The notes beneath the pieces were generated by a model. That model saw only the letters and a list, made by a program, of their open reading frames with translations. It was not told the origin of the DNA and made no database searches. 64,000 bases of DNA, taken from assembly GCF_029240175.1 (NCBI RefSeq), contig NZ_JARBTM010000007.1, positions 1-64,000 of the forward strand. The letters run 5' to 3'. Shown here in pieces: positions 40,804-61,019 of the stretch. This stretch comes from Anaerosolibacter sp. (lineage in GTDB: Bacteria > Bacillota > Clostridia > Peptostreptococcales > Thermotaleaceae). Position 1 is the stretch's first letter. The number at the start of each line of letters is the position of its first letter. The translations under genes and the position numbers were made by a program.

Positions 40804-40809
40804 AAGGTT

Positions 40810-43224: not shown

Positions 43225-43238
43225 AAGTTCACCTCTTT

Positions 43239-44429: not shown

Positions 44430-44432
44430 ATC

Positions 44433-44819: not shown

Positions 44820-44838
44820 TGAAATCACACCTTTTATG

Positions 44839-45042
44839 TTAGTAGAGTTGGAACATTGTTCTGACCGTTGTAAACAAATCGTTAACAAGTTGTATCACCA
44901 TGAACAATACAACAATAATCCCTGCCAAGGTGGTCATGGTTGCCATTTCATCTCTACCAGATCGTGTCAATACTTGATGAAGCACAGCCAATAGAATCCC
45001 TATACCTGCAATTTTAAAAATCAAATCAACATTCGTACCCAT
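44839..45042 (-). CDS. spoIIIAC: Stage III sporulation protein AC
   Basis: A 67-residue two-span protein (LIFKIAGIGILLAVLHQVLTRSGRDEMATMTTLAGIIVVLFMVIQLVNDLFTTV), the usual SpoIIIAC length and sequence. The conserved loop SGRDE-MA joins the spans. AAGGGGG precedes the ATG. It lies between spoIIIAB and spoIIIAD. Confidence 0.95.
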   Translation of the reverse strand: MGTNVDLIFKIAGIGILLAVLHQVLTRSGRDEMATMTTLAGIIVVLFMVIQLVNDLFTTVRTMFQLY

Positions 45043-45070
45043 TTTAAATCCCCCTTATTTTGTCTTTCAT

Positions 45071-45589
45071 TTATAGAAATAGTATTACGATTGCCACACC
45101 AAGCAGAACACCTAGGCTTCTATACATTCGCTCATTTTTTGATCGAAGCTCTTCCGCAGATTGCTGTTGTTTTTTAAGCTGTCCATAGATAAAATGAAAA
45201 TTCTTTAATTGATGATCTCGATCTACTGTACCAAGGCTCATGCCAAAGTCGATAAGGGCCTCTTTATCTTCCTCTGTCAAAGAAGTAAAATGATAATGCT
45301 TTTCTACCGATTGTCTCCAAGCATCTTCAATACAGAAGCCGTCCTTCTTCTCCAGGAGTTCACTAGCCTCTGTGAAGATTCTGTTCAACTCCATAGAAGA
45401 CTTTCCCCCAACCTTTTTCAATGCCTGGGGCAATGGGGTTAGCAGATACAATATCTCAGTCTCCAATAGCTGCAAAGATAAAAAAAGATGCTTAATTTGT
45501 CTTGGACGCTGAACGTATTTATAGGAAAGGATGTAACCAATAAAAGATGCACTCAAAATAATAATGATGGAAAGAATCGCTTTAACCAA
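45071..45589 (-). CDS. spoIIIAB: Stage III sporulation protein AB
   Basis: An N-terminal span (KAILSIIIILSASFIGYILSYKYVQRPRQIKHLFLSLQLLETEI) and a short C-terminal anchor (SLGVLLGVAIVILFL) flank a helical domain with LGTVDRDHQLKNFHFIYGQL, conserved in SpoIIIAB. A structural similarity to GspF-type proteins is known for the family. Two starts are possible: GTG at 45598, which lies on top of GGGAGA, and TTG at 45589, eight bases after it; TTG is preferred. Confidence 0.93.
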   Translation of the reverse strand: MVKAILSIIIILSASFIGYILSYKYVQRPRQIKHLFLSLQLLETEILYLLTPLPQALKKVGGKSSMELNRIFTEASELLEKKDGFCIEDAWRQSVEKHYHFTSLTEEDKEALIDFGMSLGTVDRDHQLKNFHFIYGQLKKQQQSAEELRSKNERMYRSLGVLLGVAIVILFL

Positions 45590-45621
45590 TGAATTCACTC
45601 TCCCTGCTAACTTCTGTAGGT

Positions 45622-46629
45622 TTATAACAAAGGCACCTTGGTTTTGCCGTCTAAGATCGATTGAATTGTACCTACTCTGGGTTGATTCGATAGAATAATG
45701 ATTCTTTCGAATATATTTTCTTCCATCATTTTTCTTAGATTTGGCCGTTTACTGACTTCGTCCAAGCTATGGCCATGCACTGTGGTCAGCACTTTAACCC
45801 CTGCATTTAATGCTTCCTCAATGGCCAACACGTCATCAAGCTTACCGATTTCATCGGTGGCAATAATCTGGGGAGACATGGAGCGAATCAGCATCATTAT
45901 TCCCTCTGCCTTTGGACAAGCATCCAAAATATCCGTTCTGATTCCGATATCGTTTTGTGGGATGCCCTGATAGGTTCCACAAATCTCCGAACGTTCGTCC
46001 ACGACACCTACTTTAAAACCCTGGAACCCCCTTTTTATCATGCCATTACTAAGATTCCGAACCATATCTCGCAGCAATGTTGTTTTTCCGCATTGGGGGG
46101 GGGATACGATTAGTGTGTTTCTAAAAATATTATTACTTGCTACGATATGCTCCATATATGCATCTGAAATTCCGATTTTCTGCCTAGATATCCGAATGTT
46201 TAAGCCGCTAATATCTTTGATGGTTTTGATGGCTGACCCGTTCATGACAGTACGTCCGCTGATACCTACCCTATGGCCGCCCCGTATCGTAATAAAACCT
46301 TTCTTAATATCCTCTTCCAAGGCATAAACTGAGTAATCAGTGACCAATTGGAAGGTTTTTTCTAGGTCTAACTTTGTAACCACATATGCCTTAGAGATCT
46401 CAGAACCTATTCCCCCATTGGAATAGACAAATATATCTTTATTTAGACTGTGAATCAACAGTGGTTGATTCGTACGGAGCCTTATTTCCTCCATGCTATT
46501 CCATAATGAAGAAGGAAGACCTTGAATCAATTCTCTGAGGTGTAAAGGAAGGGCATCGAGAATTTCCTTCCTTGGTAAATGATCTGAAGAGGTTTTCTTT
46601 AGAAAATTGATATTACCTGAACCATCCAT
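45622..46629 (-). CDS. spoIIIAA: Stage III sporulation protein AA (ATPase)
   Basis: The mother-cell ATPase of the SpoIIIA complex, similar to secretion ATPases. GGHRVGISGRTV leads into the nucleotide site TLIVSPPQCGKTTLLRDMVRNLS; the first Gly of Walker A is Ser, as usual in this family. VVDERSEICGTYQG and IIATDEIGKLDDVLAIEEALNAGVKVLTTVHGH (Walker B) follow. AAAGGAGGG precedes the ATG. It is the first gene of the spoIIIA operon, behind a sigma-E-like promoter. Confidence 0.97.
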   Translation of the reverse strand: MDGSGNINFLKKTSSDHLPRKEILDALPLHLRELIQGLPSSLWNSMEEIRLRTNQPLLIHSLNKDIFVYSNGGIGSEISKAYVVTKLDLEKTFQLVTDYSVYALEEDIKKGFITIRGGHRVGISGRTVMNGSAIKTIKDISGLNIRISRQKIGISDAYMEHIVASNNIFRNTLIVSPPQCGKTTLLRDMVRNLSNGMIKRGFQGFKVGVVDERSEICGTYQGIPQNDIGIRTDILDACPKAEGIMMLIRSMSPQIIATDEIGKLDDVLAIEEALNAGVKVLTTVHGHSLDEVSKRPNLRKMMEENIFERIIILSNQPRVGTIQSILDGKTKVPLL

Positions 46630-46652
46630 AACCTGTCCCTCCTTTATATAAA

Positions 46653-46681
46653 TATGTATTTTGAAAAGGACAATAATATGA
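46653..46681 (-). promoter_or_regulatory. Sigma-E-type promoter of the spoIIIA operon
   Basis: TCATATT (7 of 7 to KMATATT) and AATACATA (6 of 8 to CATACAHT) are 14 bases apart on the minus strand. The -10 is 24 bases upstream of the spoIIIAA ATG. Mother-cell sigma-E control of spoIIIA is established in other spore formers. Confidence 0.55.
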
Positions 46682-46710
46682 TTAAAATTTGTTCTGGGGA
46701 CAAAAAAGGG

Positions 46711-46751
46711 ATTAAAAAAACCTGATACATTATGTATCAGGTTTTTTTAAT
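46711..46751 (-). terminator. Terminator between the zinc-ribbon gene and spoIIIAA
   Basis: A 20-base perfect stem (CCTGATACAT and complement flanked by A7/T7 runs) with a single-base centre. It covers the end of the upstream gene and works in both directions in principle. It isolates spoIIIA from efp-side transcription. Confidence 0.88.
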
Positions 46752-46752
46752 A

Positions 46753-47193
46753 TTATTCGTGATGGTGATGACCGCAGCAGCCGCCTTCTTCATCACATGC
46801 ATCTTCAAAATGTAATTTTTCATGACAGCTTGGGCAAACAACCTCTATGTCATCATCGTCATCTGTTGCGTCTTCGTCAAGGTATATTATTTCGTGACAG
46901 TTTGGACACTCCAATTCGATGAAACCAAATTCATCTTCGTCATCCTCATCATCATCGTCATCGTCCATTTCACCATATACGTCATCCTCAACAACAGCCA
47001 AATCCTCATCCAGCGCTTCTACATACTCATCTAGATCTTCAACTTCCCGCTTAACTTCTTCAATAGAATCAGCGAAATCTTCCAATATATCAATGATGTT
47101 TAGAAGAATCTTGCCTTCCCTTGTCTCTTCGGTAAGTTCAGAACCCTCTGCAAGTCCTCTCAAATATGCTACTCTCTCGTAAAGATAATTCAT
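46753..47193 (-). CDS. CD1247-type protein with acidic linker, two zinc-knuckle motifs and His-rich tail
   Basis: The first 60 residues are a helical domain (MNYLYERVAYLRGLAEGSELTEETREGKILLNIIDILEDFADSIEEVKREVEDLDEYV), named after C. difficile CD1247 in databases. A run of Asp/Glu follows, then ELECPNCHEIIYLDEDA and VVCPSCHEKLHFED, two CxxC knuckles forming a zinc ribbon, and the tail CCGHHHHE. The function is unknown; the helical N-terminus suggests an adaptor or regulator. AAAGGAGGG precedes the ATG. It lies between efp and spoIIIA in many clostridia. Confidence 0.85.
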   Translation of the reverse strand: MNYLYERVAYLRGLAEGSELTEETREGKILLNIIDILEDFADSIEEVKREVEDLDEYVEALDEDLAVVEDDVYGEMDDDDDDEDDEDEFGFIELECPNCHEIIYLDEDATDDDDDIEVVCPSCHEKLHFEDACDEEGGCCGHHHHE

Positions 47194-47235
47194 GGTGAAA
47201 CCCTCCTTTTATTTAATATACCTTAGTATTATTGC

Positions 47236-47793
47236 CTAAGCTCTTGATAAATAGTCACCGGTACGTGTATCAATTTTAATTTTATCCCCTTCATTGATGA
47301 AAAAAGGCACATGGATAACAGCCCCTGTTTCAACAGTTGCAGGCTTTGTTACGTTTGTAGCGGTATCACCCTTTACACCAGGTTCAGTATAGGTTACCAC
47401 AAGCTCAACAAAGTTTGGTGGGTCTACTTGGAATGCTTTGCCCTTGAAGAACTTAACAGTTGCTGAATCATTCTCTCTTAAGTAAATAATTGCTTCTTCT
47501 ACTTGCTCCTTTGACAGAGGCAATTGCTCAAAAGACTCGTTGTCCATAAAATAATACAAATCACCATCATTGTATAAATACTGCATTTGTTTCGTCTCAA
47601 TGTGGGCTTTTGGGAACTTGTCATTTGGGTTGAAAGCTTCTTCACGGATAGAACCAGTTGTAACACTCTTGTACTTTGTTCTAACGAAAGCAGCTCCCTT
47701 ACCAGGCTTAACATGTTGGAAGTCCACTACTACAAAAGGTTCACCATTTATTTCAAATGTCACACCTTTTCTAAAATCTGATGCTGAAATCAT
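47236..47793 (-). CDS. efp: Elongation factor P
   Basis: The 185-residue protein has the three EF-P domains. [21 protein letters not shown] is the loop that reaches the peptidyl-transferase centre, with the conserved Lys in PGKG. The C-terminal signature [21 protein letters not shown] is complete. EF-P rescues ribosomes stalled at polyproline. GGAGGG precedes the ATG. No EF-P modification gene is nearby. Confidence 0.98.
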
Positions 47794-47880
47794 TATTATC
47801 CCTCCATTAATTATAAAAATAAAAAAATATTTATGCTATCTACTGGTAGTATTCGTGTATTGCCAGTAGTTGTATACATC

Positions 47881-48942
47881 TTATAACTCTATGAGTTCCT
47901 TTGGTGACTTGGACAAGGTCTTACAACCGTCTTCAGTAACGACTACAAGATCTTCGATTCGTACACCGCCAAACCCGGGCAAGTATATACCTGGTTCATC
48001 GGTAACAATCATTCCCGGCTTCAATGTATCATGGCCTAATGGAGATAATCTCGGAGATTCATGGACCTCCAAACCAACACCATGACCTAAACCATGACCA
48101 AAATAGTCACCATATCCATTTTCGCTGATAATATCTCTTGCAATCTTATCTACTTCGACCCCTGTCATGCCAGGTTTTATGGCTTCTAATGCCTTTTCTT
48201 GAGCCTCCAAAACAATAGAATATAACTTCTTTTGCTTTTCGCTGGCTTTTCCTACTACGATTGTTCTCGTCATGTCAGAGCAATACCCTTCATAAATACA
48301 TCCAAAATCCAAGGTTACAAAGTCACCTGTCTCGATGATTTTATCTGAAGCAACCCCATGGGGTAAGGATGAACGAATACCAGATGCAACGATGCTGTCA
48401 AAGGATAACCCACTGGCTCCTCTTTTCTTCATGAAATTTTCCAGCTCCAAAGCAACTTCATTTTCTTTCATACCTGCTTTCATATATGTAAGGATATACA
48501 CAAAGGCCTGATCTGCAATTTGGGCAGCTTTTTCGATGATGGATATTTCTTCATCATCTTTGATCTTTCTAAGGTTACCCATGGCACCTTCCAAAGGAAC
48601 CATCTTTGTTTGCCCCAGCTTGTCAGAGAACTCCTTATACTGGGCAAAGGTAACAAAATCATCTTCGAAGGCCATGGTATTTAAATTGAATGTGTTCAAA
48701 ATCATATGTAACGGATTCTGGTTTGTATGTTCAACAACTTTAAAGCCGTGGCACTGCTTAGCAGCCTGCTCCATATAACGAAAATCAGTGATAAAATAAG
48801 CGTCATTTAAGGTAATTAACACATACCCAGAGCTGCCAGTAAAGCCACTCAAGTATCTTCTATTTTCAGGTTTGTATATGATGGCTCCATCAATACTTTT
48901 TTCACGCAACAGCTCTCTAAAACGACCAAGCCTTGCAATCAT
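47881..48942 (-). CDS. pepP: Xaa-Pro aminopeptidase / proline dipeptidase (M24 family)
   Basis: An N-terminal creatinase-like domain (RLGRFRELLREKSIDGAIIYKPENRRYLSGFTGSSGYVLI) is followed by the pita-bread peptidase domain. Metal ligands are in TLDFGCIYEGYCSDMTRTI (two Asp), GHGLGHGVGLEVHESPRLS (His), VTDEPGIYLPGFGGVRIEDL (two Glu). It cleaves peptides at proline. GGTGGGG precedes the ATG. In clostridia and bacilli it is usually just upstream of efp, as here; proline peptide turnover and EF-P are only linked by position. Confidence 0.94.
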   Translation of the reverse strand: MIARLGRFRELLREKSIDGAIIYKPENRRYLSGFTGSSGYVLITLNDAYFITDFRYMEQAAKQCHGFKVVEHTNQNPLHMILNTFNLNTMAFEDDFVTFAQYKEFSDKLGQTKMVPLEGAMGNLRKIKDDEEISIIEKAAQIADQAFVYILTYMKAGMKENEVALELENFMKKRGASGLSFDSIVASGIRSSLPHGVASDKIIETGDFVTLDFGCIYEGYCSDMTRTIVVGKASEKQKKLYSIVLEAQEKALEAIKPGMTGVEVDKIARDIISENGYGDYFGHGLGHGVGLEVHESPRLSPLGHDTLKPGMIVTDEPGIYLPGFGGVRIEDLVVVTEDGCKTLSKSPKELIEL

Positions 48943-49111
48943 TGCAGATACCCCCCACCAACATGATGTTTATAAGTTTCCATAAATGCCAAACCATACC
49001 TATTCCCAATCCTTTAATATGATAACATAATTTTATATATTTGGATAGAATTTTTCATGTTTCTTACAATATTATACCCAATATTTACAACTTCTTTACA
49101 ATATACGAGAT

Positions 49112-49375
49112 TTATTTATGCCTTGGGTTCTTGGAAACGATGGTAATAGCATCAATCAATGCTTTCATAACATCTGTTTCAAACTGAATATTCATTTCAT
49201 TGACCCTTGAATAAAGCTCACCCTTCTCCGACACCACATAGTGAGGTTTCAAATGATTTAGTGCGATGGCTCTAATGTCATCTAGACACTGCGGACACTG
49301 ACAAACATTTGGAAACACCTTCAACATCGATGGTAATACATGATCCACAACAATCTCCATATAGTTCTTAAGCAT
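49112..49375 (-). CDS. comFB: ComFB family protein
   Basis: The 87-residue protein matches late competence protein ComFB: ENYM-like start (LKNYMEIVVDHVLPSML), CQCPQCLDDIRAIALNHLKPHYVVSEKGELYSRV and a C-terminal helix. The CxCxxC and Asp/Ala/Leu pattern is characteristic. Members of this family were recently shown in cyanobacteria to bind c-di-GMP or c-di-AMP and to influence pili and motility. Here it follows a pilin gene cluster, beside a c-di-GMP gene. AAGGAGG precedes the ATG. Confidence 0.85.
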   Translation of the reverse strand: MLKNYMEIVVDHVLPSMLKVFPNVCQCPQCLDDIRAIALNHLKPHYVVSEKGELYSRVNEMNIQFETDVMKALIDAITIVSKNPRHK

Positions 49376-49502
49376 TGAATATCCTCCTTCATCCTATAAA
49401 AGACTTATTAACATATAACTATAAGGTTAATCTTCCATACAAAAATGAAAATTCCTCTACAACATAGAAGAATTTTCGTATAAATACGACACGCTATAGG
49501 TA

Positions 49503-50045
49503 TTATTTATCTTCTGCTGACTTAATATTTCGGAAGAATGCACTATTTTCAATGGTTAGTGTCTTACCTCTTCTTTGACAAGTGATAATGACACGGATAC
49601 CTTTACATTCCTTATATTCGCCATCGATGGGAATGATCACAAAATCTTTAATATAGTTGGCGTATTGCACGTTAGCATCATTGCCATAACCATACCAAAG
49701 GCTGGCACTGGCCCTTTTATGCTCAAATACAAGCTTTTTATATTTAGGATGGATTTCATCCTCTTTAGGGGAATTTCTAAAAACAATCTTTTTTACTTTA
49801 TGCTGGGATTCATCATGGAAGCTTACTTGCTGAATCCCTTGACTATACATGACCTTATTCAAAAATTCGTTCACAGCGATTTGGGCTTGATACTGGAGCT
49901 CTAACTGGTCGTCCATCTTCTCTCCATACCTTTGATAAGCTTGAAAAAATGAAAAGACGCTGGTCATGATGATGCATAAAATGGCGAGGGCAATCAACAG
50001 CTCCATATAGGTGAAGCCTTTTCGATTAAGGTCCAAATAGCTCAT
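49503..50045 (-). CDS. Prepilin-type protein (PulG/PilW-like)
   Basis: The N-terminus DLNRKGFTYMELLIALAILCIIMTSVFSFF is a type III signal with the cleavage site G/FTYMEL and the +5 Glu. The rest (about 150 residues) is a soluble minor-pilin head, unassigned, ending in TCQRRGKTLTIENSAFF. It overlaps the upstream prepilin gene by 20 bases. The ribosome site is poor, so the start may be a few codons downstream. It is the last of four prepilin genes (51447 to 49503). Confidence 0.82.
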   Translation of the reverse strand: MSYLDLNRKGFTYMELLIALAILCIIMTSVFSFFQAYQRYGEKMDDQLELQYQAQIAVNEFLNKVMYSQGIQQVSFHDESQHKVKKIVFRNSPKEDEIHPKYKKLVFEHKRASASLWYGYGNDANVQYANYIKDFVIIPIDGEYKECKGIRVIITCQRRGKTLTIENSAFFRNIKSAEDK

Positions 50046-50469
50046 CTAACAACAATACTCTGCCGCTGGCAGGAACAATGGTAATTTGGTAGAATCGCCG
50101 TGAATCTTTGTTATAGATCGTGATGGTATCACCTCCATGGGTAGGTACGCCTTGGTAACTGAATCGGACTTCTTCATTCCCATAAAGAAGCTCAAACGGG
50201 TCGGGGATCTCTACACTCTTTAGCTCCTGGGTGCCGTCTAAGACCTTATAATACTTTTTACTAAGCAGAATGCTGTACTGTCCACCCAGTGTCATTTTCG
50301 ACATGCGCACCTCCCGTATGTCCGTACATAGATGTCGGGCATAGGATTTCATGGTAAAGCTTGATTTCTTGATTGTGGGCATCGCCAGGGACGAAAGGAT
50401 AACCATCAATCCAATAACAGCCACCACCTCAATCAGGGTGAAACCTTTCTGCCTGTGGTTTTTCTTCAT
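50026..50469 (-). CDS. Prepilin-type protein (GspH/FimT-like)
   Basis: The prepilin signal HRQKGFTLIEVVAVIGLMVILSSLAMPTI has the G/FTLIE site. The body (KSYARHLCTDIREVRMSKMTLGGQYSILLSKKYYKVLDG) has the pattern of GspH/FimT minor pseudopilins. AGGTG is six bases before the ATG at 50469; the GTG at 50478 in the track is less likely. Placed between the PilX-like and PulG-like genes. Confidence 0.83.
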   Translation of the reverse strand: MKKNHRQKGFTLIEVVAVIGLMVILSSLAMPTIKKSSFTMKSYARHLCTDIREVRMSKMTLGGQYSILLSKKYYKVLDGTQELKSVEIPDPFELLYGNEEVRFSYQGVPTHGGDTITIYNKDSRRFYQITIVPASGRVLLLDELFGP

Positions 50470-50485
50470 CTCGTTCACCTACCTG

Positions 50486-51058
50486 CTATTCAGAAAGATA
50501 TCGCATATGGAGGATATCTTCTATGTCCGTTGGTTCTAGCGGATATAAGGAAGCATTGGGCACCGATATTTCAAAGATTGCCTTTGGCATATGGGAGACA
50601 TTTCTATATTTATAAACAGACTGGATTGTTATGGAGAATTTGTCGTTCCCATTTACAAATGGTTCAACCTCTAAAACCTTCAGCGAGGGCCTTTCATTGC
50701 TTAGGGTCGGATCTAATATCGTACACGAATAACTGCTTAAAGACGAGACCAATTTTTCATTAAGATAGGTGGTATAGGATGTTTTGAACTGATGATGTCC
50801 TCCGCCTTCTTTTTCTCGTTCTAGCTGCCCAAATGCTGCCGCATGGTCAATCTCCTTGGCGATTAATCCGTATGCTTCCTCCAAGCCTGCTTCGGCTAAA
50901 TAAAAGGCAGTTTTGCTATAAAGTTCAATTTGTTTCATTCTATAATTCATCATGCTGACAGAGAATATGGCAGTGCCTAAGGCTCCGACAATGGCCAAAA
51001 TGATAATGACCAATATATAGGCAGCTCCCCTCTTTTCCAACCTAGCGTTTCTCACCAT
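50486..51058 (-). CDS. PilX-like minor pilin assembly protein
   Basis: An N-terminal span RGAAYILVIIILAIVGALGTAIFSVSMMNYRMKQIELYSKTAFYLAEAGLEEAY is typical of the PilX N-terminal domain, which lacks the Glu-5 of other pilins and keeps LAEAGLE. The remaining 130 residues are an unassigned head. AAGGAG stands six bases before ATG at 51058 (track start TTG at 51061). Twelve bases separate it from the next prepilin gene. Confidence 0.8.
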   Translation of the reverse strand: MVRNARLEKRGAAYILVIIILAIVGALGTAIFSVSMMNYRMKQIELYSKTAFYLAEAGLEEAYGLIAKEIDHAAAFGQLEREKEGGGHHQFKTSYTTYLNEKLVSSLSSYSCTILDPTLSNERPSLKVLEVEPFVNGNDKFSITIQSVYKYRNVSHMPKAIFEISVPNASLYPLEPTDIEDILHMRYLSE

Positions 51059-51069
51059 CAACAGCTCCT

Positions 51070-51447
51070 TTAATTTCGTCTCCTAAGACCAACCATTCGT
51101 GACAGTTCATGGGTGTCATCAATATCCTTCACAATCAATTGAATCTTTTCTAGTCTGGCATCATTGTTGGCCCTTTCTAAGGGTTCAATGGATACTTCGA
51201 CCCGCAGCTGAAGCGCTTCTATGTCATAAATATGTAATCCGGTACCTACATAGAGATCATATTTGCTTCTCTCCATATATTGCTGGCTTAGATGAGAATA
51301 GATCATCAGCTGCTTCGCCTCTTGGAGTAGTTTTACTGTAGACAGAAACATGGAGGATATGGGAACAAACAAAATTCCCATGATACACAATGCGATGATA
51401 ACTTCTATGAGGGTCATACCCTTTTCTTGATCCATCTTCTTTTCCAT
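51070..51447 (-). CDS. Prepilin-type protein (PilV-like)
   Basis: DQEKGMTLIEVIIALCIMGILFVPISSMF has the prepilin site G/MTLIE. The head of about 85 residues contains LSQQYMERSKYDLYVG and a short C-terminal RRN tail. AAGGGG precedes the ATG at 51447. It is the first gene of the four-gene minor pilin set that ends at 49503. Confidence 0.82.
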   Translation of the reverse strand: MEKKMDQEKGMTLIEVIIALCIMGILFVPISSMFLSTVKLLQEAKQLMIYSHLSQQYMERSKYDLYVGTGLHIYDIEALQLRVEVSIEPLERANNDARLEKIQLIVKDIDDTHELSRMVGLRRRN

Positions 51448-51654
51448 CAACCCAACCCCTTCGTGATTTGAACGGATCTAAATATTCAAACTATTCGATA
51501 AAAATCTACACAATCCTTCAAAAACTGGAAAATAAAAACAGTTTCTATGAAATAATTCTTTAGCTGTTAAAGAAAAAAGAGGAAAAAACTGTCATATGCC
51601 GAATTATATTTAGAATGGAAAACTTTTTTTTGATATTTTGAGGAGGAAAAATAT

Positions 51655-53889
51655 ATGCAACCTACTCTATTTACCAAAACAAATATTTTATTCTCCAATG
51701 GTGCTAAGGAAATATCCACGGATGACCATGGTAAAAATAGTATTGAAAAACCCTCCAATGAACTCCATGTCTTGGCTGAGTTTACTGTAGAGAATACCAA
51801 CGATATGATTTTTTGGATTGATTATACAGGAAAGATTTTTTTCGCTAACAACGGAGCCTGTAAGACTTTAGGCTATCACAAAACAGACTTTTTAAAGATG
51901 ATGGTTTTTGATTTAGACCCCACCTACTCTAGAGCATTGTGGGAAAATCATTGGACAGAAATCACCCGACAAAACACCATGACCTTTGAGTCCTCCTTAA
52001 GGACCCGGATGGATACCTATGTCCCTGTAGAAATTACTTTTGACTACATGAACTATTACGGCAAGGAATATATTTGTGCCTTTGTTCGGGATCTTACCTA
52101 TCGCAAGAAAGCCGATGAGAAGCTTAATAATCTACACAAGCTTCTAATGAATGTGGTATCTACCATACCTGGAGAGTTGTCGGTCATCGACCGCTATTAT
52201 AATATTGTCTACAGCAACTGGCCGCAATTTGATACGGGGATGGATATTAAAATCATACAACAAGATAAGTGTTTTAGAAGCTGTAAATATATCAAGGAAA
52301 ATTATACCTACTGTATGGCAAAGACAGTATTCGAAACCCAGGCGCCTCTCATGGGCAAGCAGATCAAGCTAAGGAATGGCACCTGGGCAGAGCTCAACTG
52401 TATTCCCCTCTATAATAATGAAGGAAAGATCGAAATGGTGGTGGAATACGTCTCTGATATCACGGCCCATAAAAATGCCGAAGAAGTCATTCGCGAAAGT
52501 GAAGAGCGCTGGCAGCTGGCTCTCCGAGGAAACAATGATGGGATTTGGGACTGGAATATCAAAACCAATGAAACCTTCTTTTCTGCCCGTTGGAAGGAAA
52601 TGCTCGGATATGGAGAGGATGAAATCGATCACACCTTTCACAGCTATACCCAGTTAATTCATCCCCATGATATCGGTCGTGTAATGAAGGCCATAAATGA
52701 TCATATGAATAAAAAGATTCCTTTTTATAGCTTAGAGCATCGGATGATCTGCAAGGATGGTTCCCATAAATGGATACATGCTCGCGCACAGGCTATATGG
52801 GATGAAGATGGAAATGCCATTCGTATGGCTGGCTCCCACACCGATATTACAGAGCGTAAAAAAGCTGAAGATGAGGTTCATTATCTTAGTTTCCATGACA
52901 AGTTAACGGGACTCTATAATCGTGCCTATTTTGAAGAGGAGCTCAATCGATTAAATACGGAGAGACATTTACCCCTTTCTGTTATTATCGGAGATGTTAA
53001 TGGACTTAAACTCACCAACGATGTTTTTGGACATACAGTGGGAGACCGTCTTTTAACACGTATTGGAGATATCTTGAAAAATTCCTGCCGAAAAAGTGAC
53101 ATTATCTCCCGCTGGGGCGGAGATGAATATGCCATCATCCTGCCAAAAACCGATGAAAGAGCCAGTGCGGAAATCTGCGCCAGGATCAAGGCAGCATGTC
53201 TGCAGGATGATGGAGAACTGATTAAACCCAGTATTTCATTGGGTAGTGCAACCAAGCATGATCAATCCCAGGAAATCATCCAAATACTTAAAGAGGCAGA
53301 GGACCGCATGTACCAGCATAAGCTTTTGGAAACCCAGAGCAACCAGAGCGTAATCATATCCTCTTTAGAAAAAACGCTTTTCGAAAGAAGCCATGAAACC
53401 GAGGAACATGCCCAGCGAATGAGAAAAACCTGCTATGATCTTGGCGTTCAGGTGGGCCTGTCTGAAAAGGAACAGGATGATTTGAGCCTCTGCTGTCTTC
53501 TCCATGACATAGGAAAGATTGCCATTGCCGATAGTATTCTGATGAAGGCCGACAAGCTTACCTTTGAGGAATGGGAAACCATGAAAAAGCACCCTGAAAT
53601 CGGCTATCGTATTGCAGAGTCTTCTAAGAAGCTTTCTCATATCTCTGAGTACATCCTGTACCATCATGAGCGTTGGGATGGCAAGGGCTACCCTAAAGGT
53701 CTAAGGGAATTTGAGATTCCAAAGCTTTCGAGGATACTCACCATCGTAGATGCCTATGATGTGATGACAAACGCCAGGGTCTATAAAGAACCTATGAGCA
53801 AAAAAGAAGCCCTCAAAGAAATCAGCCGCTGCGCAGGCACCCAGTTTGATCCTTTTCTTTCTAAAGTGTTCATAAAGATGATGAAATAA
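51655..53889 (+). CDS. PAS-PAS-PAS-GGDEF-HD-GYP c-di-GMP turnover protein
   Basis: Three PAS domains (about residues 40-150, 160-280, 285-405) are followed by GGDEF (about 410-560) and HD-GYP (575-744). The active GGDEF motif is GGDEY, with an RKSD inhibitory I-site five residues before it. The HD-GYP domain is complete: HDIGK, HPEIG, HHERWDGKGYP. So it might make and degrade c-di-GMP. The second PAS holds CFRSCKYIKENYTYC, a three-cysteine set that could bind a cofactor. No membrane span is seen. It is the only long plus-strand gene in the pilus region; GAGGAGG precedes the ATG. Confidence 0.93.
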   Translation: MQPTLFTKTNILFSNGAKEISTDDHGKNSIEKPSNELHVLAEFTVENTNDMIFWIDYTGKIFFANNGACKTLGYHKTDFLKMMVFDLDPTYSRALWENHWTEITRQNTMTFESSLRTRMDTYVPVEITFDYMNYYGKEYICAFVRDLTYRKKADEKLNNLHKLLMNVVSTIPGELSVIDRYYNIVYSNWPQFDTGMDIKIIQQDKCFRSCKYIKENYTYCMAKTVFETQAPLMGKQIKLRNGTWAELNCIPLYNNEGKIEMVVEYVSDITAHKNAEEVIRESEERWQLALRGNNDGIWDWNIKTNETFFSARWKEMLGYGEDEIDHTFHSYTQLIHPHDIGRVMKAINDHMNKKIPFYSLEHRMICKDGSHKWIHARAQAIWDEDGNAIRMAGSHTDITERKKAEDEVHYLSFHDKLTGLYNRAYFEEELNRLNTERHLPLSVIIGDVNGLKLTNDVFGHTVGDRLLTRIGDILKNSCRKSDIISRWGGDEYAIILPKTDERASAEICARIKAACLQDDGELIKPSISLGSATKHDQSQEIIQILKEAEDRMYQHKLLETQSNQSVIISSLEKTLFERSHETEEHAQRMRKTCYDLGVQVGLSEKEQDDLSLCCLLHDIGKIAIADSILMKADKLTFEEWETMKKHPEIGYRIAESSKKLSHISEYILYHHERWDGKGYPKGLREFEIPKLSRILTIVDAYDVMTNARVYKEPMSKKEALKEISRCAGTQFDPFLSKVFIKMMK

Positions 53890-53897
53890 TAAAGATA

Positions 53898-53931
53898 AAA
53901 AAATCGAGGATGTCGTTATCCTCGATTTTTT
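53898..53931. terminator. Bidirectional terminator between the GGDEF/HD-GYP gene and pilO-SLH
   Basis: A perfect 14-base stem (AAAAAATCGAGGAT and complement) with a six-base loop and A/T runs on both sides. Confidence 0.9.
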
Positions 53932-53934
53932 ATA

Positions 53935-55119
53935 TTATTTGAAGTGGTACAGTAGATAAACTGCTTCTCCTTTGGAAAGGTATCCCGTTTTGTTGGTAAG
54001 ACCTACAGACTCAAACCCTTTTTCAGTCTTTGCCTTCTCTCCAACCTGATTCCAGTTAAAACCAGGATCTGTCTTTACTTGGCGCATGATATATTCCACT
54101 TCCTCATAGGTTATGGGTTCCCTTGGACGTAGGGTGTTATCCGTATATCCTGCCACATATCCTCCGATAAAGCCTTTGAAAATAGCCTTGGCAATAGAGC
54201 TTTCATAGCTGCCCAAGGTACTATAATCACCAAACTTGGTCAAATCCACCTTGCCTTCTGGCACAGGCCACTGATAGACCCTATCCAGCAAAATAATGAA
54301 ATCTCCCCTTGTGATGGCTTCATCCGGCTTAAACTGATTTTCCTGATTGCCCTGGATATACCTCTTCTCACCAAAATCGTTAAGCTCTGCTTCTGCCCAA
54401 TGACCAACAATATCCGTAAACTTCACATATGTATCTGTTTTCAGCTTTGATGGATCTCCGCCGATGAAAAGATAATTAATTTTCAAGCCATTTGATGGGC
54501 TCATGGAAGAAAAAGGATTTTCTTTATAAAAATCTTCGTCAATGTACCATCGGAACAAATCATCCTTTAAATCGGGACTGTTTTTCATTCTATAGAAACC
54601 TATTTCGAAGCTGCCGCTTAAACGGCCACCTTCAGTTCTAGCCATATTGATATTCTTCACGATAATCTTCTTTTGGAATTTCCACATAGATCTTAATAGG
54701 TTCATCAGCGATGGATAATCCCCTTCGTAAGAAAGGGTGGCGTTCATGGATTCTAATTCTGTCTCACCAAGCTTTTCTATGGTGAATGGAGTAAAGGATA
54801 TTACCGATACATTAAGATTTGGATCCTGAAGCATTTCGTTAAAAAGTAAAATAAATTCTTCTTGCTCTGTAGTGGTAAAGAAGTTATTGGTAATCAGTTT
54901 GATCTTTTCATTCATGGCTGTGATGTTCTCATCCAGCTTTTTCTCGGTGGCAGCAGCATTTTCCACCTTCGTCATTTCTGCTTTGTACTGCTCTCGTTGC
55001 TGTTTTAAGCTATCTAACTCCACCAGCTGCGGCGTAATCAGAAACTGATAATATACCCACAGGAAAAGCACTGCACCTAGAACCGAAACCAATACGCGCT
55101 CTCTTCTCGTCAGCTTCAT
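53935..55119 (-). CDS. PilO-like protein fused to S-layer homology domains
   Basis: The N-terminus has a span (VLVSVLGAVLFLWVYYQFLI), a coiled coil (LKQQREQYKAEMTKVENAAATEKKLDENITAMNEKI) and a PilO-like ferredoxin-fold part (EEFILLFNEMLQDPNLNVSVISFTPF, YPSLMNLLRSMWKFQKKIIVKNINM). From about residue 225 there are SLH repeats: VKFTDIVGHWAEAELNDFGEKRYIQGN, FGDYSTLGSYESSIAKAIFKGFIGGY and a last partial one. SLH domains bind secondary cell-wall polymer, so this pilus assembly protein may fix the machine to the wall. It follows pilN by one base. AAGGATG precedes the ATG. Confidence 0.88.
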   Translation of the reverse strand: MKLTRRERVLVSVLGAVLFLWVYYQFLITPQLVELDSLKQQREQYKAEMTKVENAAATEKKLDENITAMNEKIKLITNNFFTTTEQEEFILLFNEMLQDPNLNVSVISFTPFTIEKLGETELESMNATLSYEGDYPSLMNLLRSMWKFQKKIIVKNINMARTEGGRLSGSFEIGFYRMKNSPDLKDDLFRWYIDEDFYKENPFSSMSPSNGLKINYLFIGGDPSKLKTDTYVKFTDIVGHWAEAELNDFGEKRYIQGNQENQFKPDEAITRGDFIILLDRVYQWPVPEGKVDLTKFGDYSTLGSYESSIAKAIFKGFIGGYVAGYTDNTLRPREPITYEEVEYIMRQVKTDPGFNWNQVGEKAKTEKGFESVGLTNKTGYLSKGEAVYLLYHFK

Positions 55120-55120
55120 C

Positions 55121-55669
55121 TTAATTCACATCCTTTAACGCGAATTGAATGGAAAAATTGTATAGACCTTCATTTAAAGAAACGGAAGGAATAAATAAAT
55201 CTTTAAATGCCTTTGTCTCTCGGAGATTGTACTCAATTTCTGCAATGGCTGATTTATCCCTGGCGGTACCATTGATGGTAATTTGTTCAGGGCTTATGTT
55301 AAAGGATATAAATTCTAAGTCTGGAGGAATCGCATCTACGATAAGCTGGACCAATTCATCGCTTAATACATCAATTTTTCGAAGCGCTAGCTCGCTCTTT
55401 TGCACCATGGGTAATACTGCTGTGATTTCTTCAAGCTTACTTTGTTTTTCATTGACCCTTGCCATTTTTTCTTTGGTTTCAGGAGACTCCAGTATCGTCT
55501 GCATTTGGGCAATATCTTTTTTCATATTATGGGCATAAACCAGGTTGAACACAGGAAAAGCTAGAACAGCCACAACGCACACTACTGCCATGCCATAGTA
55601 TAAGTTTTGCCTTTTTTCCTTTCCTTGATGCTGCTGTATATAGGGTTCAAAAAAGTTAAAATCTTTCAC
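55121..55669 (-). CDS. pilN: PilN-like type IV pilus assembly protein
   Basis: A short cytoplasmic N-terminus (KDFNFFEPYIQQHQ), one span (NLYYGMAVVCVVAVLAFPVFNLVYA), a coiled coil and a ferredoxin-like domain (LVQLIVDAIPPDLEFISFNISPEQITINGTARDKSAIAEIEYNLRET) match PilN. In other bacteria the first residues of PilN bind PilM (consensus INLLP). That motif is replaced by FNFFEP here. GTG start with GGGGG before it. It lies in pilM-pilN-pilO order. Confidence 0.87.
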   Translation of the reverse strand: MKDFNFFEPYIQQHQGKEKRQNLYYGMAVVCVVAVLAFPVFNLVYAHNMKKDIAQMQTILESPETKEKMARVNEKQSKLEEITAVLPMVQKSELALRKIDVLSDELVQLIVDAIPPDLEFISFNISPEQITINGTARDKSAIAEIEYNLRETKAFKDLFIPSVSLNEGLYNFSIQFALKDVN

Positions 55670-55683
55670 TGTTGCTTCCCCCC

Positions 55684-56763
55684 TTATCTTCTGACCATAG
55701 CACCCAGGGCGTTAGCATAAAGCCCAAGGTCTATATTGCCCTTGATATTGTCTGTATTTACGGAACTGATGGTTTTGATTTTTTTCACTGGGATGTTGAA
55801 GGCCTCCTCCATGTACCCAGCGATACCATTTAGATTTGCACTTCCCCCATATAGATAAATGACATCCAGTCGATTGCCTGTATTTCTAGTCATATGGTAT
55901 TTGAAAATCCGCTCGATTTCATCGATCCATGTATCCACACTGGACTTGATGATATTTAGAAATCTGGATTCATCGTTGTATTCTCCAAAGGACTTCGAAA
56001 TATCACTACATTCCACTTTTTTGATTCTCGCCTCTTCTAAAGAAAAATCCAGGAAGTTTGCAAGGTTATGGTCAATATCCTTACCACCTATATTTAAGAG
56101 ACGATTAAACTTAAAATTTCCGTTATCAAAGATGGACACATTGATTTGGTTATGGCCCAAATCAACAATAGCAGAAGTCTTACCAGCTACCGTGTCTCCA
56201 TGGTTCACCTCTGATTGTGGATGAATCAACTTGGTGATTGCATTGGAATGGACATCTAGGGCGATGGGCTTTAGATGTAAGGTTTCTAAGAGGTTTAGGT
56301 AACTTTCGGCGATACCCCTTGGCAAGGCAGCCACCAGTAAATTAACGTGCTTGGTGTCCCCTTCCATAAACTCATCCAACTGCTTATATTGTATGATGTA
56401 TTGATCTAATTCAATCGGAAGGAATTGCTGAATCTCATAGCCCACCATCTCTTTCAACTCGTGAGGCTTTGCAGAAGGCAGTACAACCTCCCGGGTGATA
56501 ATGGTGCTGCTTTCCAGGGTGCATATGGCAGCTCGGGTACGGACCTTATTCATATGCAAAGTTTCTTCTAGAATATCCTTCACCTTTTGTCCGTCGTAAA
56601 ATTGTCCATCTTTGTATAGATCCTCAGGCATGGGGATGATAAAAGCATTGTCCAAGACAAGCTTATCCTTGTCCAGCTTTCCCACCACTGCCTTAATGCT
56701 GTGGGCACCGATATCCAAGGACAGTACATCAGTGTATTTATGCGATATGGCTCTTTTCTTCAA
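55684..56763 (-). CDS. pilM: PilM-like actin-fold pilus assembly ATPase
   Basis: LSLDIGAHSIKAVVGKLD is the actin/FtsA phosphate-1 motif; SAIVDLGHNQINVSIF is phosphate-2, and VIYLYGGSANLNGIAGYMEEAF the adenosine motif. TREVVLPSAKPHELKEMVGYEIQQFLP is characteristic of PilM. Cytoplasmic ring protein that binds PilN. The start is a TTG after AAAGGGGGAG. It lies between pilD and pilN. Confidence 0.92.
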   Translation of the reverse strand: MKKRAISHKYTDVLSLDIGAHSIKAVVGKLDKDKLVLDNAFIIPMPEDLYKDGQFYDGQKVKDILEETLHMNKVRTRAAICTLESSTIITREVVLPSAKPHELKEMVGYEIQQFLPIELDQYIIQYKQLDEFMEGDTKHVNLLVAALPRGIAESYLNLLETLHLKPIALDVHSNAITKLIHPQSEVNHGDTVAGKTSAIVDLGHNQINVSIFDNGNFKFNRLLNIGGKDIDHNLANFLDFSLEEARIKKVECSDISKSFGEYNDESRFLNIIKSSVDTWIDEIERIFKYHMTRNTGNRLDVIYLYGGSANLNGIAGYMEEAFNIPVKKIKTISSVNTDNIKGNIDLGLYANALGAMVRR

Positions 56764-56785
56764 GTGTGCTCCCCCTTTTAACGTA

Positions 56786-57544
56786 TTACATGAATCTTTG
56801 TAAATACCAAGAAATCATTTCATTTTGAAAACATATGGTGATAAAAGCAGCCATGGCAATAAACGGGCCAAAGGGAATCGCTTCCTTCCTTCCTTTTATT
56901 TTCGCTGCCAAGAGAAACACAGATATTACTGCCCCGATAACAAAGGATAACAAAATGATCAAAAGAATACTTTGGATACCTAACCAAAATCCCAGCATGG
57001 CCATGAGCTTGATATCCCCGCCGCCCATACCTCCATTAGATAATATGGCTATGAGCAGGAATAGACCTCCTCCTATTAGAAACCCACCAGCTCTGCTGAA
57101 TAGCGTTATAGAAGACGCACCTATGTAATATCCATATAAGAGATATATACCACCCAAAATGAATCCGCAAACCACCATTTCATCGGGAATGATTTGATGG
57201 TCAAAATCAATACCTGCGATGGCAATAAGGAGGCTGGCTAGCAAGCTGTAAGCAATAAAATCCATGGTTTGTCCGAATACAATATATAACAAAAGGAAAA
57301 CACAACCTGTGAATAGTTCAAAGAAAGGATAGCGAAAAGAAATCTTGCTGCTGCAGTATCTACATTTGCCTCTATAAAACAAATAGCTAAGCACTGGGAT
57401 TAGGTCGAAGGCTTTAAGAAAGGTACCACATTGAGGGCAGTGAGAAGATGGATATACGATGGACTTATCATTCGGTATCCGATAGATACACACATTTAAG
57501 AAAGAACCAATCAATAACCCGTATATGAATACAAAGATATGCAT
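56786..57544 (-). CDS. pilD: Prepilin peptidase PilD
   Basis: A24 aspartic peptidase with the bifunctional leader: GLLIGSFLNVCIYRIP, the zinc-binding CPQCGTFLK ... RGKCRYCSSKISFRYP, then the catalytic aspartates in IAGIDFDHQIIPDE and GGGDIKLMAMLGFWLG. The protein spans the membrane about seven times. It cleaves prepilin leaders after glycine and N-methylates the new residue. All prepilins of this window are likely substrates. GGGGGG precedes the ATG. Confidence 0.95.
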   Translation of the reverse strand: MHIFVFIYGLLIGSFLNVCIYRIPNDKSIVYPSSHCPQCGTFLKAFDLIPVLSYLFYRGKCRYCSSKISFRYPFFELFTGCVFLLLYIVFGQTMDFIAYSLLASLLIAIAGIDFDHQIIPDEMVVCGFILGGIYLLYGYYIGASSITLFSRAGGFLIGGGLFLLIAILSNGGMGGGDIKLMAMLGFWLGIQSILLIILLSFVIGAVISVFLLAAKIKGRKEAIPFGPFIAMAAFITICFQNEMISWYLQRFM

Positions 57545-57690
57545 CTATATGTCCCCCCTTTTTTATAAAGTTCATGCAGTGAAGAAAATTGGAAACAGCT
57601 TACTTAAAAGCAAAATTTCACTATAAAATTATACCATAAATTAGTAGCCATCACAATCAAATAGGAACAAATACCTATTGACAGCATTAG

Positions 57691-58008
57691 TCAAAATTCT
57701 CCAAAATACACACTTAACCATCTAAAATGTAGTATAAGTACATAGGCCTTGATGCTGGCTAAACCTGTTAACATCATATTCAACCACTTAACCTTTTCAC
57801 TTACTTTATAGAGGAAAACCAATGCAATCGCCACATATGCCAAGACACAAAAAGCCGTTGCTTCCGTTGATAAGCAGATAAAGTAATTCATGATAGGATT
57901 ACCCTCTTGTATAATCCCTAATTGCAACCCGAATAGTGTAAAAGCAATATCAAGCACTGTAAGCAAATATATGATATAGTAAACAAAACGTGACCATTTC
58001 ATAATCAT
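57691..58008 (-). CDS. DUF5658-like small membrane protein
   Basis: The 105-residue protein has four spans: FVYYIIYLLTVLDIAFTLFGLQLGII, NYFICLSTEATAFCVLAYVAIALVFLY, and a terminal pair around WLNMMLTGLASIKAYVLILHF. The sequence LDIAFTLFGLQLGIIQEGNPIMNYFI matches DUF5658. Function unknown. AAGGAG precedes ATG ATT ATG; either Met may start. It is 146 bases upstream of pilD and 360 bases after the pilin gene, so perhaps it is its own unit. Confidence 0.72.
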   Translation of the reverse strand: MIMKWSRFVYYIIYLLTVLDIAFTLFGLQLGIIQEGNPIMNYFICLSTEATAFCVLAYVAIALVFLYKVSEKVKWLNMMLTGLASIKAYVLILHFRWLSVYFGEF

Positions 58009-58368
58009 ACAACTCCTTAATAGACATGTATGCTAATTATAATTATCTGTTGTATGATAGTATTTGTACTTATCGGGTTATGAACTGTGGTATTTACTTC
58101 CAAAGATATTCCGAGATTTAGTGTCTTGCCTAATCAGTGAAATAAGTTATGTCATGAAAGCGAGCGATTATCGTAGTCATACTGAAAATAGCTCCCTAAG
58201 ACTGGCTCATATACTAGGAGGGCTTTAACACTGGAAATCGTCAAGATATTCATTACCGTATTACCAGGTCGGGTGATTTTAATTTATTACCTCTTTACTC
58301 TTACTTTTTGAACATGAAAAAGAGTCAATCAAAATGATTGACTCCCAAATTTAAAGAAAGAGATATTA
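58009..58368. other. 360-base gene-free stretch in the pilus region
   Basis: It holds the terminator of the upstream prepilin gene (58322-58344) and should carry the promoter of the DUF5658 gene. I looked for a c-di-GMP riboswitch, which would make sense here, and found none of its core segments on either strand. Nothing else was recognised. Confidence 0.5.
58322..58344 (-). terminator. Terminator of the first prepilin operon
   Basis: A perfect ten-base stem, GAGTCAATCA and complement, with a three-base loop, 25 bases behind the stop and followed by TTTTTC on the minus strand. Confidence 0.85.
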
Positions 58369-59517
58369 TTACTCAGTTACAGTAACATCGCCTGGACTTC
58401 CATGGTTTGATGGAATATAAACATCAAAAACCTTAGTGATGGTAGCTCCATTTAAACTACCTTGCAATGTAATTGTTCCCGATTTGTGATCGCTACCATG
58501 TCTTGTAACTTCTCCACTTGGAATGGCAATTGCTGCTCCGCTCTCTACTGTTCTAGAGATGAAAGAAAAAGCTATCCCATTAATACTTGCGGGCAGATTT
58601 ATTGTTGGTTTCGCCTGATTGTTTTTATTTCCGGCATTAGAGACACTCAAAACTGCCAAAGTATCAAGTGCATCTTGTATAATTTGCTCATTTGATGGCA
58701 AAAGTATAAACTCAATTGTGTATGTAGCGCTTCTTGTACCATCTGCAGAGGTAACTTGAATCGTTGCTGTACCTGGTAGACTAGCAGCATCTGTTATACT
58801 TGAGACCGTAGCACCATCCTTACCTGTTGCAGTAACTATTGTTGGTGGGATAGTTGTTCCATGAGGTAATGATACGGTATAGTAGGTTATTGAGGAATCA
58901 AATGCTGGGGTTAGCGTACCACTACTTAATGTAAGGTTGCTTAGTTGAGCATTTGCTGGAACGGGTACAGGGGCACTTATTCCTTTTTTATAATATATAC
59001 TTTGGCTGTTTGTTAAAGTTGTTGCTGTCTCGATGTTATTCAACATTACGCTAGAGGCTAAGGTGTACGCATTCCCTTGATTTTTTCCATTGATTGAAAA
59101 ATCAAGAGTATATTTCGAACCTATTTGTACAAGTGAAAACTGTAAATCGGTGGATGGATTCTGTATTATAGCATCTGTTTTATCTATGGTAGTTCCACCA
59201 AAAGGCTTATATTTTAACTTGTTACCACTTACGTATATTTGATTATAATCATTGGGATTAGCTGGTGTTGTAAGCATAATTTCCGTGGCATTTCTTACAT
59301 CTTTTATAATAAAATCAGAGGCTAATCTAAGTGTAGATTGAATGTCAGATTGCGTGACGCCTTTATTAAAAACTTTTGTTCCAAATGATTGAAAGGAGAA
59401 TATTATGCCTAATATGATACTCAATAATCCGATTGTAATAATCAGCTCTATTAGAGTAAAGCCACTTTGTCTATTTCTTTTTCTTTCATTAGCACTACTT
59501 TTGATAGTCAAAATCAC
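58369..59517 (-). CDS. Minor pilin with cadherin-like and atypical Ig-like domains
   Basis: RQSGFTLIELIITIGLLSIILGIIFSF is a prepilin signal (G/FTLIEL). After a pilin head of about 150 residues comes a cadherin-like beta-sandwich (AQLSNLTLSSGTLTPAFDSSITYYTVSLPHG ... ATIQVTSADGTRSATYTIEF, about residues 195-270), and then an atypical bacterial Ig-like domain (INLPASINGIAFSFIS ... GTITLQGSLNGATITKVFDVYI). So at 382 residues it is a long, adhesin-like pilin. GTG at 59517 or TTG at 59511 may start it. It is the last gene of a three-prepilin unit. Confidence 0.85.
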   Translation of the reverse strand: MILTIKSSANERKRNRQSGFTLIELIITIGLLSIILGIIFSFQSFGTKVFNKGVTQSDIQSTLRLASDFIIKDVRNATEIMLTTPANPNDYNQIYVSGNKLKYKPFGGTTIDKTDAIIQNPSTDLQFSLVQIGSKYTLDFSINGKNQGNAYTLASSVMLNNIETATTLTNSQSIYYKKGISAPVPVPANAQLSNLTLSSGTLTPAFDSSITYYTVSLPHGTTIPPTIVTATGKDGATVSSITDAASLPGTATIQVTSADGTRSATYTIEFILLPSNEQIIQDALDTLAVLSVSNAGNKNNQAKPTINLPASINGIAFSFISRTVESGAAIAIPSGEVTRHGSDHKSGTITLQGSLNGATITKVFDVYIPSNHGSPGDVTVTE

Positions 59518-59553
59518 CCGATCCTTTCTAAATTAGTTTGGATGTTGGAATTA

Positions 59554-59904
59554 CTACGGTACAAACGTGGTTACTTTAGATTTCTTAGCATTTATCTCAG
59601 CTTCAAATGAAATCGATTGTCCTGATACCGTCATCCCGGGTGACGGTGGAGATGGCAACTCGATAGTAATGGTAGTAGGACTCGACGTTTCCACAATACT
59701 TGGGGCAGGTGTGCCGCCTGCAATTTTCTGCTCGGCTGCTTGATGCGCTTTAAATCCTGCTCCACTTTTGTGACCTGCATTAACAACCTGGACATACCCA
59801 AATGTAAAGAGATTCAAAAAAGCAATAACCAATATACCTAAAATCGCTACAGACACTATGATCTCAATAAGTGTCATTCCTCTATTTTCTTTTAGTCTAT
59901 TCAT
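59554..59904 (-). CDS. Prepilin-type protein (PilV-like)
   Basis: KENRGMTLIEIIVSVAILGILVIAFLNLF has the prepilin site G/MTLIE. The head of about 85 residues is Pro/Ser-rich (TPAPSIVETSSPTTITIELPSPPSPG). GAAGGT stands nine bases before ATG at 59904. It lies between the PilX-like and the adhesin-like pilin genes. Confidence 0.82.
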   Translation of the reverse strand: MNRLKENRGMTLIEIIVSVAILGILVIAFLNLFTFGYVQVVNAGHKSGAGFKAHQAAEQKIAGGTPAPSIVETSSPTTITIELPSPPSPGMTVSGQSISFEAEINAKKSKVTTFVP

Positions 59905-59927
59905 ATTTATCATACCTTCCAAGAAAA

Positions 59928-61019
59928 TTAATCACCCCATAAATCACGGCTATATCCTTCTGACTGAAAACCAAGATCTTCAGGATATAAGTTCCCTACA
60001 GCAGCTGAAGCTGCAACATCTCCTCCTGATTCTAAAGTTAGGTTTTTTGCTACAATAGCACCTACGCTATCCATATTTGCCTTAATGGTCATATCTGCAC
60101 CTGGTCCATAAATAAATCCCTGAAATTCACTATTACCAGTTTGGAAATCCAATGTACCCGAATTAAAAATATTGAGTATCGTCTTTGCATTGGGGCCAGT
60201 AAATAGGTTTCCTTTAAAATAAATACTATTCGTGTATAGGGATAAGGTACCATTGCCAGTAACGTAAATATTTGCATTGTTTCCAGACAGTGAGTTGAAT
60301 TGAATTTTCATATCTCCTGAAAGATTGATGTAGTAGGTATCACTGCCAAGGTTTACAGCGTCAAATTTACGGTCTGCGTAACCGTCACCACTGTTAATAT
60401 TAAAACCTAAAGGAGGCCAACTCAGCGTTGGGTCAGCTTCTAGCAAAACAGGGTCTGAAGGTTCTGGAAATGTTCTATTTGTTATTTTGGGGGGCTGCAC
60501 ACTTATATTACTCGTATAGCCAGTGATACTAGCGGTAGGAGTCCTTGATACGCTGCCAGTTACCTCACAGTTTGGCTGATCTATGTGCAATGAGTTTGTG
60601 ACGGTTACTGTAGAATCAAAAAAATAGTTTTTTTCTAGTGCAAGGTTAACCTTCTGCTCAACGCCACTGTATTCACCCACACTATGGATAGTCGGTTTAT
60701 ATTTATCTCCTGAAAAACTGATTTTAAAGCGACCATCTGCAAATGTTGTCCATTTATCAACGTTCGTGGTGTTGCTTGAAATCAATGTATCAATTGTACT
60801 TAGGGTATGGGTTGGATCTTCTATCCAAGTTGAAGCAGCTTCCGCACCTGCTCTTGCAATATAATAGGCTTTAAGTCGCTTTTCCTCATGGATCGCAAAA
60901 TTATTCTCTGCAAGACTTACTTGAAGAAGCGCCGCACCAAGAATAGAAAGAACAGCCATAACAATTATGATCAAAACTAATGAGGAACCTTTCTTATTTT
61001 TAAATGCTTTGTTCATCAT
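59928..61019 (-). CDS. PilX-like protein with DUF7305-type beta-solenoid head
   Basis: KKGSSLVLIIIVMAVLSILGAALLQVSLAENNFAIHEEKRLKAYYIARAGAEAAS is a PilX-type N-terminus without the Glu-5. The head of 300 residues has repeats rich in Asn, Gly and Thr (YYINLSGDMKIQFNSLSGNNANIYVTGNGTLSLYTNSIYFKGNL...) that match DUF7305 and look like a right-handed beta-helix. It is the first gene of the unit, with AGGAGGG before the ATG. A TTGCAA-17-TAACAT promoter candidate lies 40-70 bases upstream. Confidence 0.83.
   Translation of the reverse strand: MMNKAFKNKKGSSLVLIIIVMAVLSILGAALLQVSLAENNFAIHEEKRLKAYYIARAGAEAASTWIEDPTHTLSTIDTLISSNTTNVDKWTTFADGRFKISFSGDKYKPTIHSVGEYSGVEQKVNLALEKNYFFDSTVTVTNSLHIDQPNCEVTGSVSRTPTASITGYTSNISVQPPKITNRTFPEPSDPVLLEADPTLSWPPLGFNINSGDGYADRKFDAVNLGSDTYYINLSGDMKIQFNSLSGNNANIYVTGNGTLSLYTNSIYFKGNLFTGPNAKTILNIFNSGTLDFQTGNSEFQGFIYGPGADMTIKANMDSVGAIVAKNLTLESGGDVAASAAVGNLYPEDLGFQSEGYSRDLWGD

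Follow-up and report, generated by a model that had tools for sequence, protein, structure and literature searches.

The type IV pilus genes in the stretch of Anaerosolibacter sp. DNA analysed here (the window: 64,000 nucleotides, contig C16:1-64000 of a 3.87 Mb genome in 50 contigs) are best read as the distal half of a clostridial pilus locus controlled by cyclic di-GMP (c-di-GMP), in which the ComFB-family protein encoded at the far end adds to a riboswitch rather than replaces one; we put the probability of this reading at about 0.6. The genes named in the preliminary description of the window, comFB, four prepilin genes and a divergent gene for a PAS/PAS/PAS/GGDEF/HD-GYP protein, are all present. 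One prepilin (open reading frame 50486-51061) is recognised by eye only, with no Pfam or NCBIfam match; its homologues occupy the same position in the loci of relatives (L060 and L064). Control of piliation by c-di-GMP, as proposed in that description, is well supported by a c-di-GMP-II riboswitch before pilB, by the MshEN domain of PilB and by the position-conserved GGDEF/HD-GYP neighbour.

The start of the locus lies 6 kb past the end of the window. Beyond an insertion sequence (IS) element, the same (-) strand encodes a Wzy_C protein, pilA, pilC, pilT and pilB, and 54 nt before pilB, on the same strand, there is a c-di-GMP-II riboswitch (RF01786, C16:70106-70188 (-), 61 bits against a gathering threshold of 53.5). 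In this leader the 3' strand of P1, CUAACAAUAUU, doubles as the 5' arm of a terminator whose 12-bp stem is followed by seven U; the duplex has an energy of -15.2 kcal/mol, a value reached by 0 of 500 shuffles. P1 and the intrinsic terminator are thus mutually exclusive, the arrangement that defines an ON switch, and because one strand serves both, the ligand should prevent termination; from the layout of the leader we predict this layer of control with high confidence. The closest known parallel is the Clostridioides difficile type IV pilus operon, in which the class II switch Cdi-2-4 activates pilA1 (PMC8428550). In both cases an activating class II switch heads the main pil operon, but in C. 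difficile it precedes pilA1, whereas here it precedes pilB, and the present locus ends in comFB followed by pepP-efp.

The absence of a riboswitch reported earlier holds for the window and fails for the locus. At Rfam gathering thresholds the window contains only OLE RNA, and a permissive scan (E<=5) of 46500-64000 gave nothing relevant. The divergent region 51450-51655 and the 127-bp gap before comFB were considered as riboswitch sites and rejected, with nothing relevant at the same threshold. The recommended search with RF01051 and RF01786 is accordingly negative inside the window and positive outside it, where RF01786 matches directly 5' of pilB. The riboswitch seems to be missing because the start of the locus falls outside the window, and a window edge of this kind can make an ordinary riboswitch-controlled pilus operon seem switchless. 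The idea that ComFB stands in for an absent riboswitch is contradicted by the switch past the window edge, the very kind of observation that its proponent had named beforehand as speaking against it, and by the same element before pilB in 11 relatives that share this locus; even though the window itself is free of riboswitches and the prepilin-comFB block is probably transcribed apart from the riboswitch transcript, we regard this idea as very improbable.

RF01786 was sought in 26 relatives. A match on the same strand, at most 25 kb upstream of comFB, was found in 13 of 26 comFB-bearing genomes (the present one counted), where about 0.2 would be expected by chance. In the 11 relatives in which the DNA around the match was read, the switch stands directly before pilB, and in most of them the P1 strand is used again by a terminator that follows. 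Several of these matches fall below the gathering threshold on their own score (for example G073, with 35.7 bits); for these, the argument rests on where they lie and on the terminator layout that they have in common. In genome G116 the match lies just before pilB, but comFB is elsewhere, 1 Mb away; there, a GGDEF/HD-GYP gene is found directly upstream of the riboswitch and pilB (L158 5646-6499). Three genomes, G098, G004 and G028, have a second c-di-GMP-II riboswitch within the pilus locus (L152 1965-2047, L153 8460-8543 and L154 4102-4182).

The co-occurrence of comFB with pilin clusters, which the preliminary description had asked about, was followed as well, and synteny strongly supports ComFB as a member of the pilus locus. 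In most of the fetched loci with pil genes, comFB has the prepilins on one side and the genes for a XaaPro peptidase (pepP) and Efp on the other; at least two core pil genes are found within 10 kb in 20 of 40 fetched comFB loci, and in several Thermotaleaceae genomes comFB is located elsewhere. By position comFB does close the prepilin cluster in the window, but it is set apart from the last prepilin by a terminator-like hairpin (49477-49447 (-)). Transcription from the riboswitch probably stops short of the prepilins and comFB in this genome, because the GGDEF/HD-GYP gene, which runs opposite to the pilus operon, a bidirectional terminator and the IS element (62255-63835) lie in between. The prepilins and comFB therefore likely have a promoter of their own within 51450-51655.

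As to ComFB itself, the protein matches PF10719 over the full domain (positions 1-83/83; 87.4 bits against 25), and its AlphaFold2 model (pLDDT 83.6) resembles both Bacillus subtilis ComFB (4wai, TM 0.80) and the complex of CdgR with c-di-GMP (8hja, TM 0.72). B. subtilis ComFB is the closest solved structure and has the Cys motif in common with it, but is encoded in the comF operon with comFA and comFC, away from pilus genes, and the window protein scores far below the equivalog cut-off for that type. The cyanobacterial proteins ComFB (Slr1970) and CdgR (Alr3277) share its family and predicted fold, and a link to pili is known in cyanobacteria; their genes adjoin hfq, whereas the 87-residue window protein, with its C-x-C-x2-C motif, is encoded inside a pil locus and its ligand is putative. 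In Synechocystis, ComFB binds both cyclic di-AMP (c-di-AMP) and c-di-GMP, and the cells require it for normal piliation as well as for competence and transformation (PMC12313861); in Anabaena, CdgR is a c-di-GMP receptor (PMC13075795). By analogy with these proteins, and from the modelled fold, it is plausible that the window ComFB is a receptor for c-di-GMP and/or c-di-AMP. A ComFB-like gene is also found in a chemotaxis cluster of genome G194 (L082 3022-3327), beside CheY-, CheC-, CheD-, CheW- and CheB-like open reading frames identified by eye.

PilB offers a second candidate at the protein level. Its MshEN domain (E 2.4e-22; 79.2 bits against 23.1) consists of two 24-residue motifs with a 5-residue spacer, that is, a near-complete 53-residue module of the published 24+5+24 type (PMC5013675). 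It repeats the RLGxxLVxx.LI..L...L..Q pattern of the MshEN-bearing PilB/MshE ATPases, and differs from them by one turn Gly changed to Q in motif I and by an Arg changed to Lys in motif II; the PilBs of the relatives also carry MshEN. As a protein receptor, MshEN is of a better-established type than ComFB, and it is the main rival of ComFB for that role: PilB may be the c-di-GMP receptor, with ComFB a pilus or competence accessory that answers c-di-AMP only, or nothing. In line with this, the competence defect in Synechocystis tracks c-di-AMP while c-di-GMP is unchanged (PMC12313861), and the present genome encodes two proteins of the c-di-AMP cyclase family (DAC domain) and a competence protein of the ComEC type, so that ComFB may also act in the context of c-di-AMP or of DNA uptake. 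On the other hand, the affinity of Synechocystis ComFB for c-di-GMP is about equal to that for c-di-AMP, CdgR does serve as a c-di-GMP receptor, and a ComFB paralogue described below sits behind c-di-GMP riboswitches; we thus consider such a division of labour a real possibility, if not the probable one.

The product of the divergent gene is a predicted dual GGDEF/HD-GYP enzyme, with catalytic motifs that are intact by eye (GGDEY, an upstream RxxD I-site, HDIGK and HHERWDGKGYP). Its gene might be an unrelated neighbour, adjacent by coincidence where the genome has so many c-di-GMP enzymes (61 first-look candidates for GGDEF/HD-GYP homologues), and A. carboniphilus and most relatives lack it at this place. 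Full- or near-full-length orthologues occur only in G098 (73%) and G028 (61%), the next-best matches being ~50% and covering the C-terminal part only; yet these two, from two other genera, are both at exactly this spot, with pilO on one side and the first prepilin on the other, and the one in G028 is co-directional with the operon. Because the position is conserved in three genera, we argue for a functional link to the pilus, and find mere adjacency conceivable but somewhat doubtful.

We suggest that control of the pilus would be layered. In the first layer, c-di-GMP would bind the class II switch before pilB, and the stabilised P1 would take the strand that starts the terminator, so that pilB-pilT-pilC-pilA is transcribed. 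In the second, c-di-GMP would bind the MshEN domain of PilB, as its motif suggests, and tune the extension motor. More tentatively, the adjacent GGDEF/HD-GYP protein may make or degrade c-di-GMP under the control of its PAS domains. Finally, we speculate that ComFB, encoded at the far end of the locus, might bind c-di-GMP and/or c-di-AMP like its cyanobacterial relatives; a ligand-responsive ComFB would then adjust pilus assembly or pil expression, adding to the riboswitch.

Genome-wide there are 11 c-di-GMP-I riboswitches and 2 of the c-di-GMP-II class. Besides the one at the comFB paralogue discussed next, there are c-di-GMP-I switches before genes for a PAS-GGDEF protein, an HD-GYP protein, a methyl-accepting chemotaxis protein, an SLH protein and a repeat-rich surface protein, and before a Tad-type pilus cluster; from these varied targets it follows that the organism uses RNA-based c-di-GMP sensing heavily, a pattern into which the pilus locus fits. 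The region with the switch before the Tad/Flp-type cluster is L021 887-2613; that with the other c-di-GMP-II switch, which stands before genes for a signal peptidase (Peptidase_S26) and a secreted protein, is L009 1-1584.

A second, divergent ComFB is encoded at C15:23925-24152, with a c-di-GMP-I aptamer directly upstream (C15:23733-23820). Ten such paralogues from the order form one clade, with support of 91/93 (97/99 with one outlier), values that are rough given the few alignment columns. Five of the ten loci have an RF01051 match (69-82 bits against 35) directly upstream on the same strand, namely those of the present genome, A. carboniphilus, Geosporobacter, Natronincola and Anaerovirgula, while the 57 other ComFB loci are all free of c-di-GMP switches within 1.5 kb (Fisher p 2.6e-5, which overstates the independence of these related rows). 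A wider contig search for the paralogue returned five loci, all in genomes already included. Terminator-like hairpins follow the aptamer in most cases, and the best duplex of the aptamer 3' strand falls on the terminator 5' arm, which suggests a switch of the OFF type, the type to which the majority of C. difficile class I switches belong (PMC8428550); the paralogue would then be supplied at low c-di-GMP. In Anabaena, CdgR accumulates on c-di-GMP depletion by an unexplained mechanism (PMC13075795), which we regard as a parallel and not as evidence. The paralogue locus may thus stack an RNA receptor and a putative protein receptor in one circuit. One could go further and see the Peptostreptococcales ComFBs as a protein tier of c-di-GMP sensing wired to riboswitches, one member ending an ON pilus locus and the divergent paralogue standing under a c-di-GMP-I OFF switch; as a whole, we think this unlikely.

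Several observations weigh against these readings. A. carboniphilus, our comparison genome from the same genus (family Thermotaleaceae, order Peptostreptococcales), has a pil-comFB locus with no c-di-GMP-II switch detectable before pilB (E<=1), and the riboswitch layer is therefore not universal. The window ComFB reaches 52.9 bits against the cut-off of 120 for the Bacillus-type equivalog model NF052654 (NCBIfam), and motif I of the PilB MshEN domain has lost its turn Gly. Five of the ten paralogue loci are without a switch, and in the paralogue leaders the pairing of aptamer and terminator is no stronger than in shuffles (fractions 0.07-0.39).

Features of the pilus locus within the window, with window positions
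Feature	Position	Strand	Basis
comFB, 87 aa, C-x-C-x2-C motif	49112..49375	-	PF10719 E 6.7e-25; predicted fold; synteny between type IV pilus minor prepilins and pepP-efp
Terminator-like hairpin separating comFB from the last prepilin	49447..49477	-	14-pair stem, T-rich tail
Minor prepilin, ComGE/ComGF-like	49503..50045	-	N_methyl E 4.4e-5; NCBIfam ComGE/ComGF below cut-off
Minor prepilin, GspH/ComGD-like	50026..50478	-	N_methyl E 1.1e-6; NCBIfam below cut-off
PilX/GspK-like prepilin candidate	50486..51061	-	by eye: N-terminal hydrophobic segment and position
Minor prepilin, PilV-like	51070..51450	-	N_methyl E 1e-5; TIGR02523 below cut-off
PAS-PAS-PAS-GGDEF-HD-GYP protein	51655..53889	+	Pfam PAS/PAS/PAS/GGDEF/HD_5
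Bidirectional terminator-like hairpin between GGDEF/HD-GYP gene and pilO	53898..53931	both	15-pair stem, T-tract on either strand
pilO-like with C-terminal SLH domain	53935..55119	-	T2SSM E 3.5e-8; SLH E 3.9e-12
pilN	55121..55669	-	PF05137 E 1.4e-10
pilM	55684..56763	-	PF11104 E 3.3e-39
pilD prepilin peptidase	56786..57544	-	PF06750 and PF01478
Second prepilin group (58369-59517, 59554-59922, 59928-61019)	58369..61019	-	PilX_N, DUF7305

Long PilO-like homologues that resemble the SLH-bearing protein are found in the loci of several relatives (L060, L064, L071 and L125). A DUF5658 membrane protein is encoded within the locus at 57691-58008 (-) and has a 51% homologue in the pil locus L130. The IS transposase (DUF772/DDE_Tnp_1_6; 62255-63835 (-)) has the Wzy_C gene on one side and the second prepilin group on the other, and about 1.2 kb of DNA poor in open reading frames adjoins it. 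Elsewhere in the window there are a full-length OLE RNA, a large noncoding RNA (RF01071, 403.9 bits; 34318-34938 (-)), and, by eye, an apparent spoIIIAA-AH sporulation cluster near efp (39965-46629 (-)).

That ComFB can act as a cyclic-dinucleotide receptor is a recent finding, made in cyanobacteria. The riboswitch-linked ComFB paralogue is new here, and is the part of this work most worth following; we found no relevant paper tying comFB to riboswitches in the open-access literature, an absence that is no proof of novelty. The linkage provides independent genomic evidence that places a clostridial ComFB paralogue in the c-di-GMP regulon, and Anaerosolibacter, Geosporobacter, Natronincola and Anaerovirgula are cultured taxa in which it can be tested. 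If the wiring is as we speculate, low c-di-GMP would both raise the amount of the paralogue receptor and leave that receptor free of ligand, a feed-forward circuit that would resemble the accumulation of CdgR in Anabaena.

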